From Stigmatella aurantiaca DW4/3-1 (GTDB lineage: Bacteria; Myxococcota; Myxococcia; Myxococcales; Myxococcaceae), in assembly GCF_000165485.1 (NCBI RefSeq), contig NC_014623.1, positions 3,925,501 to 3,989,500 of the forward strand: DNA of 64,000 nucleotides, given 5' to 3'. Below, in pieces: positions 27,766-32,743 of this stretch (position 1 is the first letter of the stretch; each line of letters opens with the position of its first letter). The translations under genes were made by a program, and so were the position numbers. Under the pieces are notes generated by a model. The model made no database searches and had not been told where the DNA came from. It saw only the letters and a program-made list of their open reading frames with translations.

Positions 27766-27796
27766 GCCACGGCTGTTCCTGACTGTTTTTGGCGGG

Positions 27797-27817
27797 GCCG
27801 CCGGTGTTGCCGGAGGC
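27797..27817. terminator. Small hairpin between convergent pcnB and lanthipeptide gene
   Basis: GCCGCCGG (27797-27804) and CCGGAGGC (27810-27817) pair with one mismatch around a 5-nt loop. TCCTGTTT follows on the plus strand, and a run of five T precedes it on the plus strand at 27786-27790. It lies in the 59 bp between two convergent genes and could serve both, though the stem is short. Confidence 0.4.
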
Positions 27818-27824
27818 TCCTGTT

Positions 27825-28079
27825 TCAAATCGCCATATCCCGGGTGATGGGGCAGATGACGATGCCGCAGGTGGGGCGGACAGGACCGGTGCAGCCCGTT
27901 GACGGGCCGATTTCCCCTTTGGACACCTGCCCGCCCGTGATGCCGAGCAGCTCCTCTTCACTGAGTTCGGACAGCGGCTGACCGGAGGGACTCTCGGGCA
28001 GAGCCGCGCGCTCCTCGGGGGAAAGGCTTGCGCGGAAGGCAGGGTCTTTCCAGGCACGAATGATGTTCTTCGGGTTCAT
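27825..28079 (-). CDS. Mersacidin/lichenicidin-type lanthipeptide precursor
   Basis: The 84-residue peptide has the type 2 lantibiotic leader pattern: NIIRAWKDPAFRASLSPEE at the start, then ELSEEELLGITGG ending in the double glycine at 49-50, where a C39 peptidase would cut. The 34-residue core has three Cys (63, 71, 76) and six Ser/Thr (53, 60, 61, 64, 70, 79), including STGCTG and TCGIVIC, enough for up to three (methyl)lanthionine rings. The ATG at 28079 has GGAGAG upstream; longer starts read into the control region. No LanM synthetase gene is in the window, so modification must come from elsewhere, if it occurs. Confidence 0.85.
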   Translation of the reverse strand: MNPKNIIRAWKDPAFRASLSPEERAALPESPSGQPLSELSEEELLGITGGQVSKGEIGPSTGCTGPVRPTCGIVICPITRDMAI

Positions 28080-28156
28080 GGTGTTCTCTCCGGGAGTGCC
28101 TCGGTCCGCGAGGGGCGGCGGGGCCTCATGGGAAGAGAGTGCCCCGGAACAAAACC

Positions 28157-28232
28157 GTGACAGGGGGGCCGCTGCGAGGCGGCTGCCTTGTCCTCCAGCC
28201 AAGACACGCATGCCCTTGCCATCCCCTGTCAC
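28157..28232. promoter_or_regulatory. Inverted repeat pair in the divergent peptide control region
   Basis: GTGACAGGGG (28157-28166) and CCCCTGTCAC (28223-28232) are perfect 10-bp inverted copies, 56 bp apart, inside the 213-bp gap between the two divergent peptide genes. The spacing (about six helical turns centre to centre) would let one dimeric regulator bridge both sites by looping. No -10/-35 pair could be picked with confidence. Confidence 0.5.
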
Positions 28233-28259
28233 AAGGGCCATGCCCGCGCCCTCTGTCTG

Positions 28260-28278
28260 AATGCCCACTCAGGGCATT
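28260..28278 (+). promoter_or_regulatory. Hairpin directly before the ribosome-binding site of the 54-residue peptide
   Basis: AATGCCC (28260-28266), loop ACTCA, GGGCATT (28272-28278) form a perfect 7-bp stem. The strong ribosome-binding site GGAGGAG (28280-28286) starts 1 nt later and lies 6 nt before the ATG. The stem could control ribosome access or protect the 5' end of the message, or be a DNA operator. Confidence 0.5.
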
Positions 28279-28292
28279 TGGAGGAGACGTCC

Positions 28293-28457
28293 ATGAGCCA
28301 CAAGACGGAAGTGCAGGAGAAGCGGCTGGTGCATCAGGGGATCGAGATCGATGACAAGGATTTGATCACCGTCATCGGCGGTGCCGCGGCTGAGAAGCCC
28401 AAGCACCAGGTCACCGTGAAGCCGGATGGCACGATTGTCATCGTCGTTTACCGGTGA
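28293..28457 (+). CDS. Small double-glycine peptide, likely exported (no known family)
   Basis: The 54-residue peptide has a hydrophilic N-terminal part, then DDKDLITVIGG ending in Gly-Gly at 29-30, which resembles leaders cut by C39-peptidase exporters. The remaining 24 residues (AAAEKPKHQVTVKPDGTIVI and on) have no Cys or Ser and only two Thr, so lanthionine chemistry is not possible; the end is beta-prone and hydrophobic (TIVIVVYR). GGAGGAG is well placed before the ATG. It lies convergent to a C39 ABC exporter gene and divergent from a lanthipeptide precursor. It may be an unmodified bacteriocin-like or signalling peptide. No family is recognised. Confidence 0.7.
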   Translation: MSHKTEVQEKRLVHQGIEIDDKDLITVIGGAAAEKPKHQVTVKPDGTIVIVVYR

Positions 28458-28464
28458 CGGACGT

Positions 28465-28499
28465 CCGGTGGCGGGCAGCCCTGGGCTGCTCGCCGCCGG
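28465..28499. terminator. Strong bidirectional terminator hairpin
   Basis: CCGGTGGCGGGCAGCC (28465-28480) and GGCTGCTCGCCGCCGG (28484-28499) pair over 16 positions, two of them as wobble pairs, around a 3-nt loop. It lies in the 59 bp between the convergent small-peptide and ABC-exporter genes, followed by TCTTCTGTGTGTGT on the plus strand. It probably ends transcription from the peptide gene and may do so for both. Confidence 0.7.
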
Positions 28500-28516
28500 T
28501 CTTCTGTGTGTGTGGA

Positions 28517-30748
28517 TTACTCCAGTCGTCCTGTCTGCCGCACCTGGGCGCTCACCAGCCGCGAGTAGAATCCCCCGCGTGAGAGCAGTTCCTCGTGCGA
28601 GCCTGACTCCACCAGACGGCCCTCGTCCATGACCAGGATGAGGTCTGCCTCCACCACGGTGCTCAGCCGGTGGGCAATCACGATGCGCGTGCAGCTCAGA
28701 CCCGCCAGGGCCTGCTGCACCTTGCGCTCGGTGATGGCATCCAAGGCACTGGTGGCCTCGTCGAGCAGGAGCACGGCGGGCTTTTGCATCAGCGCCCGGG
28801 CCAGGGCCAGCCGCTGCCGCTGGCCACCAGAGAGGGAAGCCCCCTGATCCACCAAGGGCGTGTCATAGCCCATCGGCATGGCCATGATGTCCTCATGGAG
28901 CTGGGCCAGCCGCGCCGCCTCGGTGATGGACTCGAGCGGCTTCCCCGGATCCGAGAGCGCGATGTTGGCACGCAGCGAGGAGCTGAAGAAGGCGGGCTCC
29001 TGGGGCACGACGCCGAGCTGGCTGCGCACCGAGTGCAAGTCCAGCTCGGAGAGATCCTGCGCGTCGAAGAGCACGCGTCCAGAGGTAGGCAAGTACAGGC
29101 CGAGCAGCAGGCTGGCCAGGGTGGACTTGCCCGCCCCCGAGCGGCCGACGATGGCCACGAACTGTCCGGGCGCGATGCGCACCGACACGTCCTGCACCAC
29201 CAGCGGCGCCAGGGGAGAGTAGCGGAATGCCACGTTGTCCAGCTCGATGCCGCCGCGCAGCGTGATGGAGCGTCCCAGCTGGCCTGGGGCGCGCTCGGGA
29301 GGGGTATCCAGCACGTCGTCGATGCGCTCGATGTAGCTGCGCAGGAGCTGGAGCTGGGTGCCGGTGGTGACCAGGTTGGCCAACGGCACGAGCAGGGCGC
29401 CGGCCAAGGCGTTCAGGCCCATCATGGTGCCCAGCGACATTTTCCCCGCCAGCACTTGCAGCGCGCCGAAGGTGAGCAGGATGAGGGGAGAGGCCATGCG
29501 CAAGGTGCCCGTGAGCGCATCTACCCAGGCGGCGAGCTGGCCCCGCTTCAGCGAGACATTGAGCACGTTGACGAGGAGTTCCGAGAAGCGCTGCACCGCT
29601 TGGTGTTCCACACCGAAGGCCTTGAGCGTCTGGATGCCGGTGAGCATTTCAATCTGATAGCTCTGGCTCTTGGCCTCCACCTCCAGGTTCTCGGACAGCA
29701 AGGCGCGCTGCCGGTGGGTGGAGAGCAGCAGGATGAGGATTTGCAGCAGGCTGAGTCCCAGGACGAGCAGCGCCATGAAGGGGCTCACCGCCACCAGCAG
29801 CACGAGGTAGAGGACCACGAGCACACCATCCAGCACCCCGGAGATGGCACTGGAGGAGAGGATTTCTCGCACGGTGGAGTTGCTGTTGAGGCGGGCCAGG
29901 AGATCTCCCGCGGCACGGACCTGGAAGAAGGCGTAGGAGAGGCTGACGAGGTGCTCCAGGAAGCTGAGCGTCATGCTGGAGTCCATGCGCGTGCGCAGCT
30001 CCAGCAGCAGGTGGCCCCGGATGAGGGACGTCAGAAGCTGGAAGCCAGCCAGCGACAGGAGTCCCAGCCCCACCACGAGCAGCAGGTGCTGGTCCCCCCG
30101 GGGCACCACGCGGTCGATGATGATGCCGGTGAGCGCGGGCACCGCCAGCGCGAAGAGCTGAAGCACCAGGGAGACGGTGAGGATGCGGCCCAGTGAGTGG
30201 GATTGCTGGATGACCTGGAGGGCATAGCGGGAGGCATTGCGGGGCTGGGCCTTGCGCGTCTCGAAGTGCTCTCCAGGTTCGAGCAGCAAGGCCACGCCGG
30301 TGAAGGACTGGCGAAAGCGCTCCATGGGCACGCGGCGCCGGCCGTGCCCGGGGTCCACGACGTGAACGCAGTCCCGGCCGAGCCGCTCGAAGACGACGAA
30401 GTGTGAGAATTGCCAGTGGAGGATGGTGCCGGTGGGCAGGTAGCGCAGCGCCTCCGGGCCGATGGAGACGCCCCGTCCCCGCATGCCGAAAGACCGGGCT
30501 GCCCGGAGGATGTCCAGGGCCGAGACGCCATCACGCGCGGCCCCCATGGTCTGGCGTACCTGCTCCAGCCGTGTGGGGCGGCCGTGGAAACCCATCGTCA
30601 TCGCCAGGCAGGCGGCGCCGCACTCGGTCTCCGAGAGCTGGTGGACAATGGGGATGCGGCGCCCGCGTGCGCGGGCCTGGAGGTTCTGCAGGGCGGGAAA
30701 GCGGTGGGTGAGGGGCGAGGGCTGGGGACTGGCTTCATCGGTCTTCAT
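28517..30748 (-). CDS. Peptidase-containing ABC exporter (C39, bacteriocin/lantibiotic type)
   Basis: The 743-residue protein joins an N-terminal C39 peptidase (about 30-150; Gln37, Cys43 in TECGAACLA, His116 in SHFVVFE, Asp132 in VDPGHG), a six-helix ABC membrane domain (about 185-460), and a complete ATPase domain: Walker A GRSGAGKST, signature LSGGQRQRL, Walker B VLLLDEATSALD, H-loop IAHRLST. Such exporters remove a double-glycine leader while secreting the peptide. Two candidate substrates lie immediately downstream. Its start overlaps the adaptor gene by 14 bp, so the export genes form an operon. No TolC gene is near. Confidence 0.93.
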   Translation of the reverse strand: MKTDEASPQPSPLTHRFPALQNLQARARGRRIPIVHQLSETECGAACLAMTMGFHGRPTRLEQVRQTMGAARDGVSALDILRAARSFGMRGRGVSIGPEALRYLPTGTILHWQFSHFVVFERLGRDCVHVVDPGHGRRRVPMERFRQSFTGVALLLEPGEHFETRKAQPRNASRYALQVIQQSHSLGRILTVSLVLQLFALAVPALTGIIIDRVVPRGDQHLLLVVGLGLLSLAGFQLLTSLIRGHLLLELRTRMDSSMTLSFLEHLVSLSYAFFQVRAAGDLLARLNSNSTVREILSSSAISGVLDGVLVVLYLVLLVAVSPFMALLVLGLSLLQILILLLSTHRQRALLSENLEVEAKSQSYQIEMLTGIQTLKAFGVEHQAVQRFSELLVNVLNVSLKRGQLAAWVDALTGTLRMASPLILLTFGALQVLAGKMSLGTMMGLNALAGALLVPLANLVTTGTQLQLLRSYIERIDDVLDTPPERAPGQLGRSITLRGGIELDNVAFRYSPLAPLVVQDVSVRIAPGQFVAIVGRSGAGKSTLASLLLGLYLPTSGRVLFDAQDLSELDLHSVRSQLGVVPQEPAFFSSSLRANIALSDPGKPLESITEAARLAQLHEDIMAMPMGYDTPLVDQGASLSGGQRQRLALARALMQKPAVLLLDEATSALDAITERKVQQALAGLSCTRIVIAHRLSTVVEADLILVMDEGRLVESGSHEELLSRGGFYSRLVSAQVRQTGRLE

Positions 30749-31685
30749 ATCCCAGGGCTCCCTTCAAGCCGGGCACGAGGGCCACGAGGATGCGTTCGGA
30801 GCGAACGCGGGCATCGGCGCGTGCTTGCATGCCATCGAAGAAGTTGAAGGCGCGCCGCTTGCTGAGGAACGTGGGCGAGTCGATGCGTGCCCGCACCATC
30901 ACCAGGGGACCCGAGAGGGTGAGGGCGTCCGCGACGTCCGGGCCCAGGAACCGGCGGGCCTCATTGGGGCCGATGATCTGGTCTCCCACCGATTCGATGC
31001 GCATCTCATGATACTCGTGGGGAAAGCCGTTGAACTCGACGCGCAGCGCGCGGCCCGGCTCGAGCATGGGCCGGTAGCCTCCTGGCAGCAGGGCCAGCAG
31101 CGTCACGTGCACGTCATCGCCGATGAGGGTGACGACGCTGGCGCCGGGCGAGATGTACTGGCCGGGGCGGACGCGCAGGGAGCCCACCACCCCGGCATGG
31201 GGCGCGCGCAGGGTGCGGTCCTGTTGCCGGGCCTGGGCCAGTTCCCGCTCGGCACGCAGCGAGGTGAGCGTCTGCCGGGCCGACTCGTCCGTGGGCTCTC
31301 TCAGCACCCGCAAGAGCTGAAGCTCGAACTCACGCTGGATGCGGTCCAGGGAGGCGGTCTCTCCCTGAGCAAGGAAGGTCACCAGCGGTTGTCCCGCCTC
31401 CACGCGTTGACCCGTCTTCACCTTCACGGACGCCACGAGGCCTGGGGTGTCCACGGACAGGTTGCTGCGCCCCTCCACCTCCACCACAGCGGGGCCGGAG
31501 GCGTACTCGGGCAGGGTGCCCAGCGCGGAGTAGGCCAGCGTGGAGAGCAGGAGGGCGAGCAGGACCCAGTAGGTCCATCGCGTCCACTCCGGAGCGATGC
31601 GCAGCAGTTCGCCCTCTTGCTGGGCTCCCTCGTGGTGGCGCAGGGCTTCCTCGCGGAAGATGCGGGGACGGTCTTCAGCGCTCAT
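30735..31685 (-). CDS. HlyD-family adaptor for peptide export
   Basis: The 316-residue protein has a short cytoplasmic start, one membrane helix (about 36-56) and a periplasmic HlyD-type part: a lipoyl half (GLVASVKVKTGQRVEAGQPL), a fairly short helical hairpin (about 110-155), the second lipoyl half (APHAGVVGSLRVRPGQYISP) and a beta-barrel end. It matches adaptors that link peptidase-ABC exporters to an outer-membrane channel. It overlaps the ABC gene by 14 bp and the second adaptor gene as ATGA, so all three should be made together. Confidence 0.88.
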   Translation of the reverse strand: MSAEDRPRIFREEALRHHEGAQQEGELLRIAPEWTRWTYWVLLALLLSTLAYSALGTLPEYASGPAVVEVEGRSNLSVDTPGLVASVKVKTGQRVEAGQPLVTFLAQGETASLDRIQREFELQLLRVLREPTDESARQTLTSLRAERELAQARQQDRTLRAPHAGVVGSLRVRPGQYISPGASVVTLIGDDVHVTLLALLPGGYRPMLEPGRALRVEFNGFPHEYHEMRIESVGDQIIGPNEARRFLGPDVADALTLSGPLVMVRARIDSPTFLSKRRAFNFFDGMQARADARVRSERILVALVPGLKGALGYEDR

Positions 31686-32644
31686 GGTGCGGCCCCCCGG
31701 GCAGAAGCGGCCTGGGCCTTATCCTTCCCCAGTGGGAGCGGGGCCTCGGCGCGGACGTGCACCACCTGGCCCGTGGAGACATTGTCCGCAGGGGGTTGGT
31801 TGAAGGTCGCGATGGCGAAGACCAGGCGGGCCGCGGTGTCCACCTCGGGGGCGATGCTCTCCACGGTACCGGTGAGCGAAGCGCCCTGTTGAACCACCCA
31901 CAGCTGGACCGGAGCGCCCTCGTAAAGCTGGCGGGCCGCACCTTCCGGCAAGGCGAACCGGACCTTCCAGCCTCTCCTTCCGAGCAGCCGGAGAACCGGT
32001 TGTCCCGCGGCCACGCGTGAGCCGGGGCCGATGAGGCGGGCGGCGATGACGCCCTCGAAGGGGGCGGTCAGCGTGGCCTCCTGGAGGTTCTGTTCCAGTT
32101 CGGCCACTTGGGCCTTCCGCTCGCGTGCCTGCGCCTGCGCGGACTCCAGGCGGGCCAGGGCGGTGCTCTCCCGGTAGCGGAGGCCGTCCAACTCCTCCTG
32201 CGAGTAGACGCCCAGCGCGAGGGAACGCGGGGTGTTGTAGCGCTTCCTCTTGACGCGGGCCTCGGAGAGCGCGAGCGAAGCGGCTTGAACCTCGGCCTGG
32301 GCCGCCTGGAGCGTGGCGCGCGCGGCGCTGAGATTCTGCTGCAGGGAGCGGGTGTCGAGCCGCGCCAGCACCTGTCCCTTCTGGACGGTGTCACCCACCT
32401 CGACGTCCATCTCCTGGAGTTGGGACTCGAAGCGGGGGCTCAGATCGGCGGAATCCTGGGGAATGATGACTCCCAGGAAGGGGCCGGTGGCCCCCGCCCG
32501 GGAGACGCCGTCGTCCACCACCAGGGCGGGCGGCGTGTCACCCAGGCGGGGGACGGATCCGGAGCGCACGGGTACCGGGTTTGCCCATCCCCCTATGCCC
32601 ACGAGGCTCAGCCCGAGGGCCACCGTCCTTGCCCACCCGCTCAT
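31682..32644 (-). CDS. Second periplasmic adaptor (RND/HlyD type)
   Basis: The 320-residue protein has a signal peptide (about 1-21) and the membrane-fusion fold: lipoyl half MDVEVGDTVQKGQVLARL (about 78-95), a long coiled-coil hairpin (about 98-195) rich in Ala/Gln/Glu/Arg, then APFEGVIAARLIGPGSRV and a barrel domain. It looks more like adaptors of RND pumps than of type 1 secretion. An exporter operon with two different adaptors is uncommon; they may pair, or one may serve another pump. AGGGAG lies upstream of the ATG. Confidence 0.85.
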   Translation of the reverse strand: MSGWARTVALGLSLVGIGGWANPVPVRSGSVPRLGDTPPALVVDDGVSRAGATGPFLGVIIPQDSADLSPRFESQLQEMDVEVGDTVQKGQVLARLDTRSLQQNLSAARATLQAAQAEVQAASLALSEARVKRKRYNTPRSLALGVYSQEELDGLRYRESTALARLESAQAQARERKAQVAELEQNLQEATLTAPFEGVIAARLIGPGSRVAAGQPVLRLLGRRGWKVRFALPEGAARQLYEGAPVQLWVVQQGASLTGTVESIAPEVDTAARLVFAIATFNQPPADNVSTGQVVHVRAEAPLPLGKDKAQAASARGAAP

Positions 32645-32743
32645 CCTGCAGCTCCCTGAAAGGATCCATCCAGGAGGAGGGGGCCCAGCGGCGTTGTGAC
32701 GCCGGGCGGGGGTGCTTGCTGGGCAAGGAGGCTCCGTTCCTGC

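Follow-up and report, generated by a model that had tools for sequence, protein, structure and literature searches.

LanA1 of Stigmatella aurantiaca DW4/3-1 (genome G000) is very probably a functional precursor of a class II lanthipeptide; its rings would be formed in trans by a LanM enzyme encoded elsewhere in the genome, and the C39 exporter encoded beside it would trim and export the peptide. The gene lies in the window, the 64-kb stretch of DNA analysed here (G000:C1:3925501-3989500), within a genome assembled as a single contig of 10,260,756 bases. Judged from sequence, the pathway appears split and not broken, and would represent a variation on class II lanthipeptide systems already described. 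We call the arrangement split because LanA1 no longer stands beside LanM and now sits with an exporter trio and a second small peptide gene, pepB, between pcnB and mscS. Sequence evidence for this reading comes from the genes, their genome-wide counts, orthology, an empty site in congeners, and a match between leader type and LanM clade.

The LanA1 precursor and its exporter cassette

LanA1 matches TIGR03898, the mersacidin/lichenicidin type 2 lantibiotic leader family, over residues 5-50, with a profile score of 75.7 bits (cut-off 23.5; Table 1). The leader comprises residues 1-50 and ends in Gly-Gly at positions 49-50. It is followed by a core of 34 amino acids, QVSKGEIGPSTGCTGPVRPTCGIVICPITRDMAI, containing three Cys and six Ser/Thr residues. 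Its calculated monoisotopic mass is 3455.74 Da when unmodified and would fall by 18.01 Da per dehydration, to 3419.72 Da for two and 3401.71 Da for three. The original prediction had described a precursor with a type 2 leader, a Gly-Gly end and a core of this composition, and both the profile match and the residue count bear it out. A good ribosome-binding site (GGAGAG) precedes the ATG, while the pattern scan found no sigma-70-type promoter pattern in the region. The strength of the TIGR03898 match, together with a conserved orthologue in the nearest relative, G036, rules out a chance open reading frame.

The orthologue in G036 is 81% identical. Between the two species the core has evolved faster (dN 0.24, dS 0.49) than the leader (dN 0.027, dS 0.53), and the G000 core differs from its nearest orthologue at 12 aligned positions and by one gap. 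Among 15 LanA1-type peptides, T61, G62, C63, T70, C71, G72 and I73 are invariant, and the third Cys, C76, is in register in 14. Invariance is thus found at four of nine Cys/Ser/Thr positions of the core and at three of its 25 other positions, a suggestive excess (one-sided p 0.06).

Table 1 Features of the LanA1 cassette, with positions in the window.
Feature	Position	Strand	Evidence and remarks
LanA1, type 2 lanthipeptide precursor, 84 aa	27825..28079	-	TIGR03898, E 2e-21
pepB, 54-aa peptide with GG-type leader	28293..28457	+	conserved in G036; GGAGGAG upstream
Terminator-like hairpin after pepB, 16-bp stem	28465..28499	+	pattern scan; in the convergent pepB/exporter gap
C39 peptidase - ABC permease - ATPase exporter (LanT/PCAT type), 743 aa	28517..30748	-	PF03412 (E 2.5e-30), PF00664, PF00005
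HlyD-type periplasmic adaptor 2	30735..31685	-	PF16576 and PF13437 over cut-off, TIGR01843 below cut-off; overlaps exporter start
HlyD/RND-type periplasmic adaptor 1	31682..32644	-	TIGR01730 (134 bits, cut-off 94.9), PF13437; overlaps adaptor 2 start
Whole LanA1-pepB-exporter-adaptors cassette	27766..32743	.	found in G000 and G036; site empty in G037 and G038; limits approximate

Along the minus strand, adaptor 1 comes first, its end overlapping the start of adaptor 2, which in turn overlaps the C39 exporter; a gap of 437 bases separates the exporter from LanA1. The exporter is homologous to PCAT1 (4ry2; E 1.6e-110, residues 30-731) and carries the only C39 match in the genome, which therefore holds the C39-containing exporter (LanT) of a class II lanthipeptide pathway. 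An exporter and two adaptors had been placed directly upstream of the precursor; the C39 and ABC domains and the HlyD-type matches agree with this, although the pepB reading frame in between had been omitted. The neighbouring genes had been described as housekeeping on both sides, and pcnB and an mscS-type channel gene indeed border the cassette, which spans roughly 5 kb. The names of genes farther out, dinP among them, were read from translations.

In the peptide encoded by pepB, a leader of the GG type, IEIDDKDLITVIGG, precedes a core without Cys, AAAEKPKHQVTVKPDGTIVIVVYR, with a calculated mass of 2618.49 Da. The peptide shows 81-85% identity in G036 and weak conservation in G039, G040 and G041, and we regard it as a candidate second cargo of the exporter. 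Profile searches gave no family match over cut-off for pepB, and Pfam gave none for either pepB or LanA1. The hairpin behind pepB is weak evidence, since the region contains two such sites against 1.7 expected by shuffling. Peptides of the pepB type, with a GG-type leader, a Cys-free core and a KPDGTIVI motif, form a small family (window 28293-28457(+); G036, L181; G041, L183:1492-1659(-); G039, L184:1492-1686(-)). By reading, the gene adjoins a Ku-like gene in G039 and G041.

LanM, LanA2 and their orthologues in relatives

Four LANC-like proteins are encoded in the genome, at 0.29, 5.02, 8.36 and 8.78 Mb. None of these matches falls in the window, which spans 3.93-3.99 Mb; a LanM hidden there is thus rejected, and the earlier statement that the 64 kb contain none stands. 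PF13575 is matched by two of the four. The proteins at 8.36 and 8.78 Mb have no such match and, by reading, class III/IV-like N-termini, and were set aside. The genome search for LanM that had been proposed as a check yielded a full-length enzyme of 1098 amino acids at genome positions 286683-289979 (0.287 Mb), about 3.66 Mb from LanA1 and the exporter. Its single open reading frame covers PF13575 (positions 1-377) and PF05147 (LANC, 2-349), so that a bifunctional LanM with dehydratase and LanC domains is present in this genome. The enzyme is homologous to LicM2 (6st5; E 1e-130, residues 112-1097), and its GFSHG, WCHG and LCHG motifs are in register with that structure.

No more than about 120 bases separate the start of this LanM from the stop codon of LanA2, which together with LanA1 makes up the two TIGR03898 precursors of the genome. 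The two peptides have 39 of 87 aligned residues in common, mostly in the leader. No exporter was found among the open reading frames of a 19-kb stretch around LanM. Precursor, LanM and LanT therefore do not form one cluster, an organization that is usual but not universal; instead the LanM/LanA2 locus has the enzyme and the window locus has the exporter, and the two loci thus complement each other. Within this genome LanM is physically linked to LanA2 only. The original prediction took a LanM clearly linked only to another precursor as speaking against modification of LanA1. Because LanM adjoins LanA2, the finding would fall by that wording, but the wording is too strict given the arrangement in relatives.

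In four relatives (G039, G040, G041 and G042), a LanA1-type peptide with the core pattern TGC...TCGI..C is encoded between LanA2 and the orthologous LanM. The LanMs of these four, of G036 and of this genome form one clade with 100/100 support in the tree. The core of the G040 peptide, STGCTGPVRKTCGIVICPI, may be compared with STGCTGPVRPTCGIVICPI in G000. Only in G000 and G036 does LanA1 lie at the exporter. G036 carries the same cassette in the same place, with an exporter 96% identical, and its LanA2 lies beside LanM elsewhere (loci L100, L110). In two congeners, G037 and G038, pcnB, mscS and dinP are consecutive and the cassette is absent, which leaves an empty site. The exporter of G039-G042 is 76-78% identical, and its orthologous trio stands alone among other neighbours, so exporter and LanM are separate there too; G040 has six precursors and one C39 match. 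Since close relatives keep the LanA1-type gene beside LanM, the apparent gap in the window most likely reflects a rearranged, working pathway. From the gene order, we infer that LanA1 was moved or copied to the exporter site and lost beside LanM.

Two further observations concern these loci. The HlyD-HlyD-C39 trio (L103-L106; G040, G041, G039 and G042) has different neighbours in each genome, as if moving as a unit. A third, divergent TIGR03898-like peptide with a Cys-free core (IGPDQDL...TPYIRV) accompanies the LanA2-LanA1-LanM group (L153:6697-6963(+), L160:6066-6338(+)).

The pairing of LanA1 with this LanM was assessed through both parts of the peptide. Against 120 family precursors, 96 peptide reading frames were found in 82 sources, and 94 of these were used for core comparison; core starts followed a simple GG/GA rule, by which some cores are trimmed. 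Compared with 94 other cores, the window core gave z values of 7.7 or more for 14 and of 2.8 or less for the rest, and ten of these 14 lie beside LanM. The nearest leader predicted the LanM clade correctly for all 54 linked precursors with the whole genome of the query held out, in a set where several genomes carry both LanM clades. The LanA1 leader scores 184 against clade 1, to which the LanM of its own genome belongs, and 109 against clade 2. Together, the linkage of LanA1-type genes to LanM in relatives and the agreement between leader type and LanM clade make the distant LanM the most likely enzyme to modify LanA1, acting in trans.

Precursors over the cut-off, 120 in number, are carried by 36 of the 96 family genomes; two rows below the cut-off were dropped. 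Clade-I LanM, defined by a PF13575 score of at least 379 bits (57 rows, a threshold set after seeing the list), occurs at full size in 35 of the 36 precursor-bearing genomes and in none of the 60 others, a count over 96 genomes that ignores kinship. The exception, G021, is an assembly of 1240 contigs with a partial LANC match of 178 bits. A second group of 41 PF13575 rows scores 203-363 bits, weaker rows being left out, and 14 of the 60 precursor-less genomes have only PF13575 proteins other than clade-I LanM. Within 20 kb of a clade-I LanM lie 79 of the 120 precursors; 41 do not, a figure inflated by contig breaks. Restricting the count to the 15 precursor-bearing genomes in one or two contigs leaves 53 precursors, 22 of which lack a clade-I LanM at that distance. 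The distance table for C39 used 125 rows, those under about 85 bits being left out. Archangium-type genomes carry scattered TIGR03898 precursors without clade-I LanM within 20 kb: nine of 13 are unlinked in G003 and six of nine in G007, and G004 has 14 precursors.

Proposed pathway and alternative readings

These comparisons suggest how leader binding, ring formation, cleavage and exporter sharing may proceed. The LanM at 286683-289979 would bind the leader IIRAWKDP...GG that LanA1 and LanA2 have in common, dehydrate Ser/Thr residues of the core and close thioether rings on the TGC and TCGI..C motifs. The adjacent C39 exporter would then cut after Gly-Gly and export the core through the two adaptors. 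It would probably also handle LanA2, whose locus has no exporter, and the Cys-free pepB.

The original prediction left two possibilities, modification by an enzyme encoded elsewhere or export without rings. The first is strongly supported by the LanM of matching clade and by the relatives. The second, in which LanA1 has become an unmodified cargo of an exporter that works on ordinary GG-leader peptides like pepB, seems improbable to us. It accords with the conserved, Cys-free pepB next door and its GG-type leader, with exporter homologues kept in G037 and G038 without a TIGR03898 precursor or PF13575 protein, and with the existence of Cys-free precursor cores (four of 40 unlinked, two of 54 linked). 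Yet the Thr and Cys of the TGC and TCG motifs are invariant in all 15 LanA1-type peptides, and the third Cys is in register in 14, though the core otherwise drifts. Moreover, most relatives of the LanA1 core lie beside LanM, and the leader groups with those of LanM clade 1.

Very little probability falls to modification of LanA1 by the 5.02-Mb LanM, even though this is the second full-length PF13575 and LANC protein of the genome. It is remote (branch 1.6) from the clades found with TIGR03898 precursors, scoring 414 bits where the other 34 score 592-2129; its locus encodes a small peptide whose leader differs and holds additional genes that read as oxygenase-like; and in 14 genomes other-type PF13575 proteins occur alone, with the TIGR03898 precursor absent. 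At that second locus, the small peptide ends in SCTWGANCGK (L008:573-734(+); LanM at L008:7205-10390(+)), and radical-enzyme-like as well as oxygenase-like neighbours were noted by reading. That LanA1 is a decaying relic of cluster break-up is equally hard to credit: the lost physical linkage to LanM and the divergent core would fit, but two species have an intact frame, strong purifying selection acts on the leader, the Thr/Cys motif is kept, and the gene has a good ribosome-binding site.

Modification in trans followed by export through the adjacent C39 protein thus remains the preferred reading, and a broader one may be built on it by analogy. Myxococcaceae LanMs of one clade may act as genome-wide hubs for scattered precursors, with C39 exporters as shared hubs too, and LanA1 and LanA2 may form one secreted lanthipeptide pair; this is a tentative proposal, somewhat short of an even chance. 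The question of a two-component lantibiotic was considered in view of the adjacency of LanA1 and LanA2 types in the four relatives.

To cluster-based mining, the window locus would look like a precursor and exporter lacking their enzyme, and the LanM locus like an enzyme lacking its exporter. With 22 of 53 precursors unlinked in genomes of one or two contigs, much myxobacterial lanthipeptide content may be missed. The agreement of leader type with LanM clade offers a simple way to pair such split parts. With exporter, enzyme and precursors naturally encoded apart, genetics could also test cleanly which part decides cargo.

Comparison with known systems

Among the papers available, a search on split lanthipeptide clusters returned no match, and for Stigmatella, Archangium and other myxobacterial lanthipeptides the relevant finds were a LanT entry in a table and a single characterised peptide. 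The table entry concerns STIAU_4626, listed in the available passages of PMC3951391 as a C39 LanT homologue of S. aurantiaca DW4/3-1 with HlyD as its only associated protein and no LanM; the same passages suggest that orphan LanTs may serve peptides encoded elsewhere. Since the genome has one C39 protein, STIAU_4626 is very likely the window exporter. The precursor, the LanM partner and the comparison with relatives are additions to what those passages contain.

The characterised peptide is LanII-2B of Archangium violaceum. According to the available part of PMC9576775, two of its four Ser/Thr are dehydrated and two of its three Cys are in rings, giving one DL-lanthionine, one DL-methyllanthionine and one free Cys; it is cleaved by LahT150 and weakly active, with a MIC of 130 uM against two Gram-negative species. 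A single TIGR03898 precursor was found in A. violaceum Cb vi76 (L167); this LanA1-type peptide has four Ser/Thr and three Cys and lies beside a sister-clade LanM. Because species and Ser/Thr/Cys counts agree, LanII-2B is probably the product of this LanA1-like precursor, although nine of 93 cores fit the same counts (three further peptides had no core by the core rule). Ser60, present in only nine of the 15 LanA1-type peptides, would in the Archangium peptide be the likely source of the reported lanthionine. If LanII-2B is indeed this product, the chemistry of the LanA1 peptide type has already been seen. The LanII-2B precursor and its LanM are adjacent, whereas LanA1 and LanM lie about 3.66 Mb apart here.

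Prochlorosin and synechococsin systems (ProcM, SyncM), as described in the available part of PMC10783134, likewise combine one class II LanM with genome-scattered precursors that have GG leaders, a conserved leader and a variable core. One LanM with a precursor elsewhere in the genome is also what we found, a likeness of arrangement only. Prochlorosin leaders belong to the Nif11 family in that source, whereas the leader here is TIGR03898, and no Nif11 family was among the profile matches. This genome also differs from prochlorosin systems in having two precursors, one next to the enzyme and the other next to the exporter. Were the hub proposal true, the LanM would fill a ProcM-like role with an unrelated leader family.

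In lichenicidin biosynthesis, the parts of the pathway are clustered. Over nearly the whole length, the distant LanM is homologous to LicM2 (6st5) and the exporter to PCAT1 (4ry2); the two adaptors found here, a point of difference from the LicM2 and PCAT1 systems, reflect a Gram-negative envelope.
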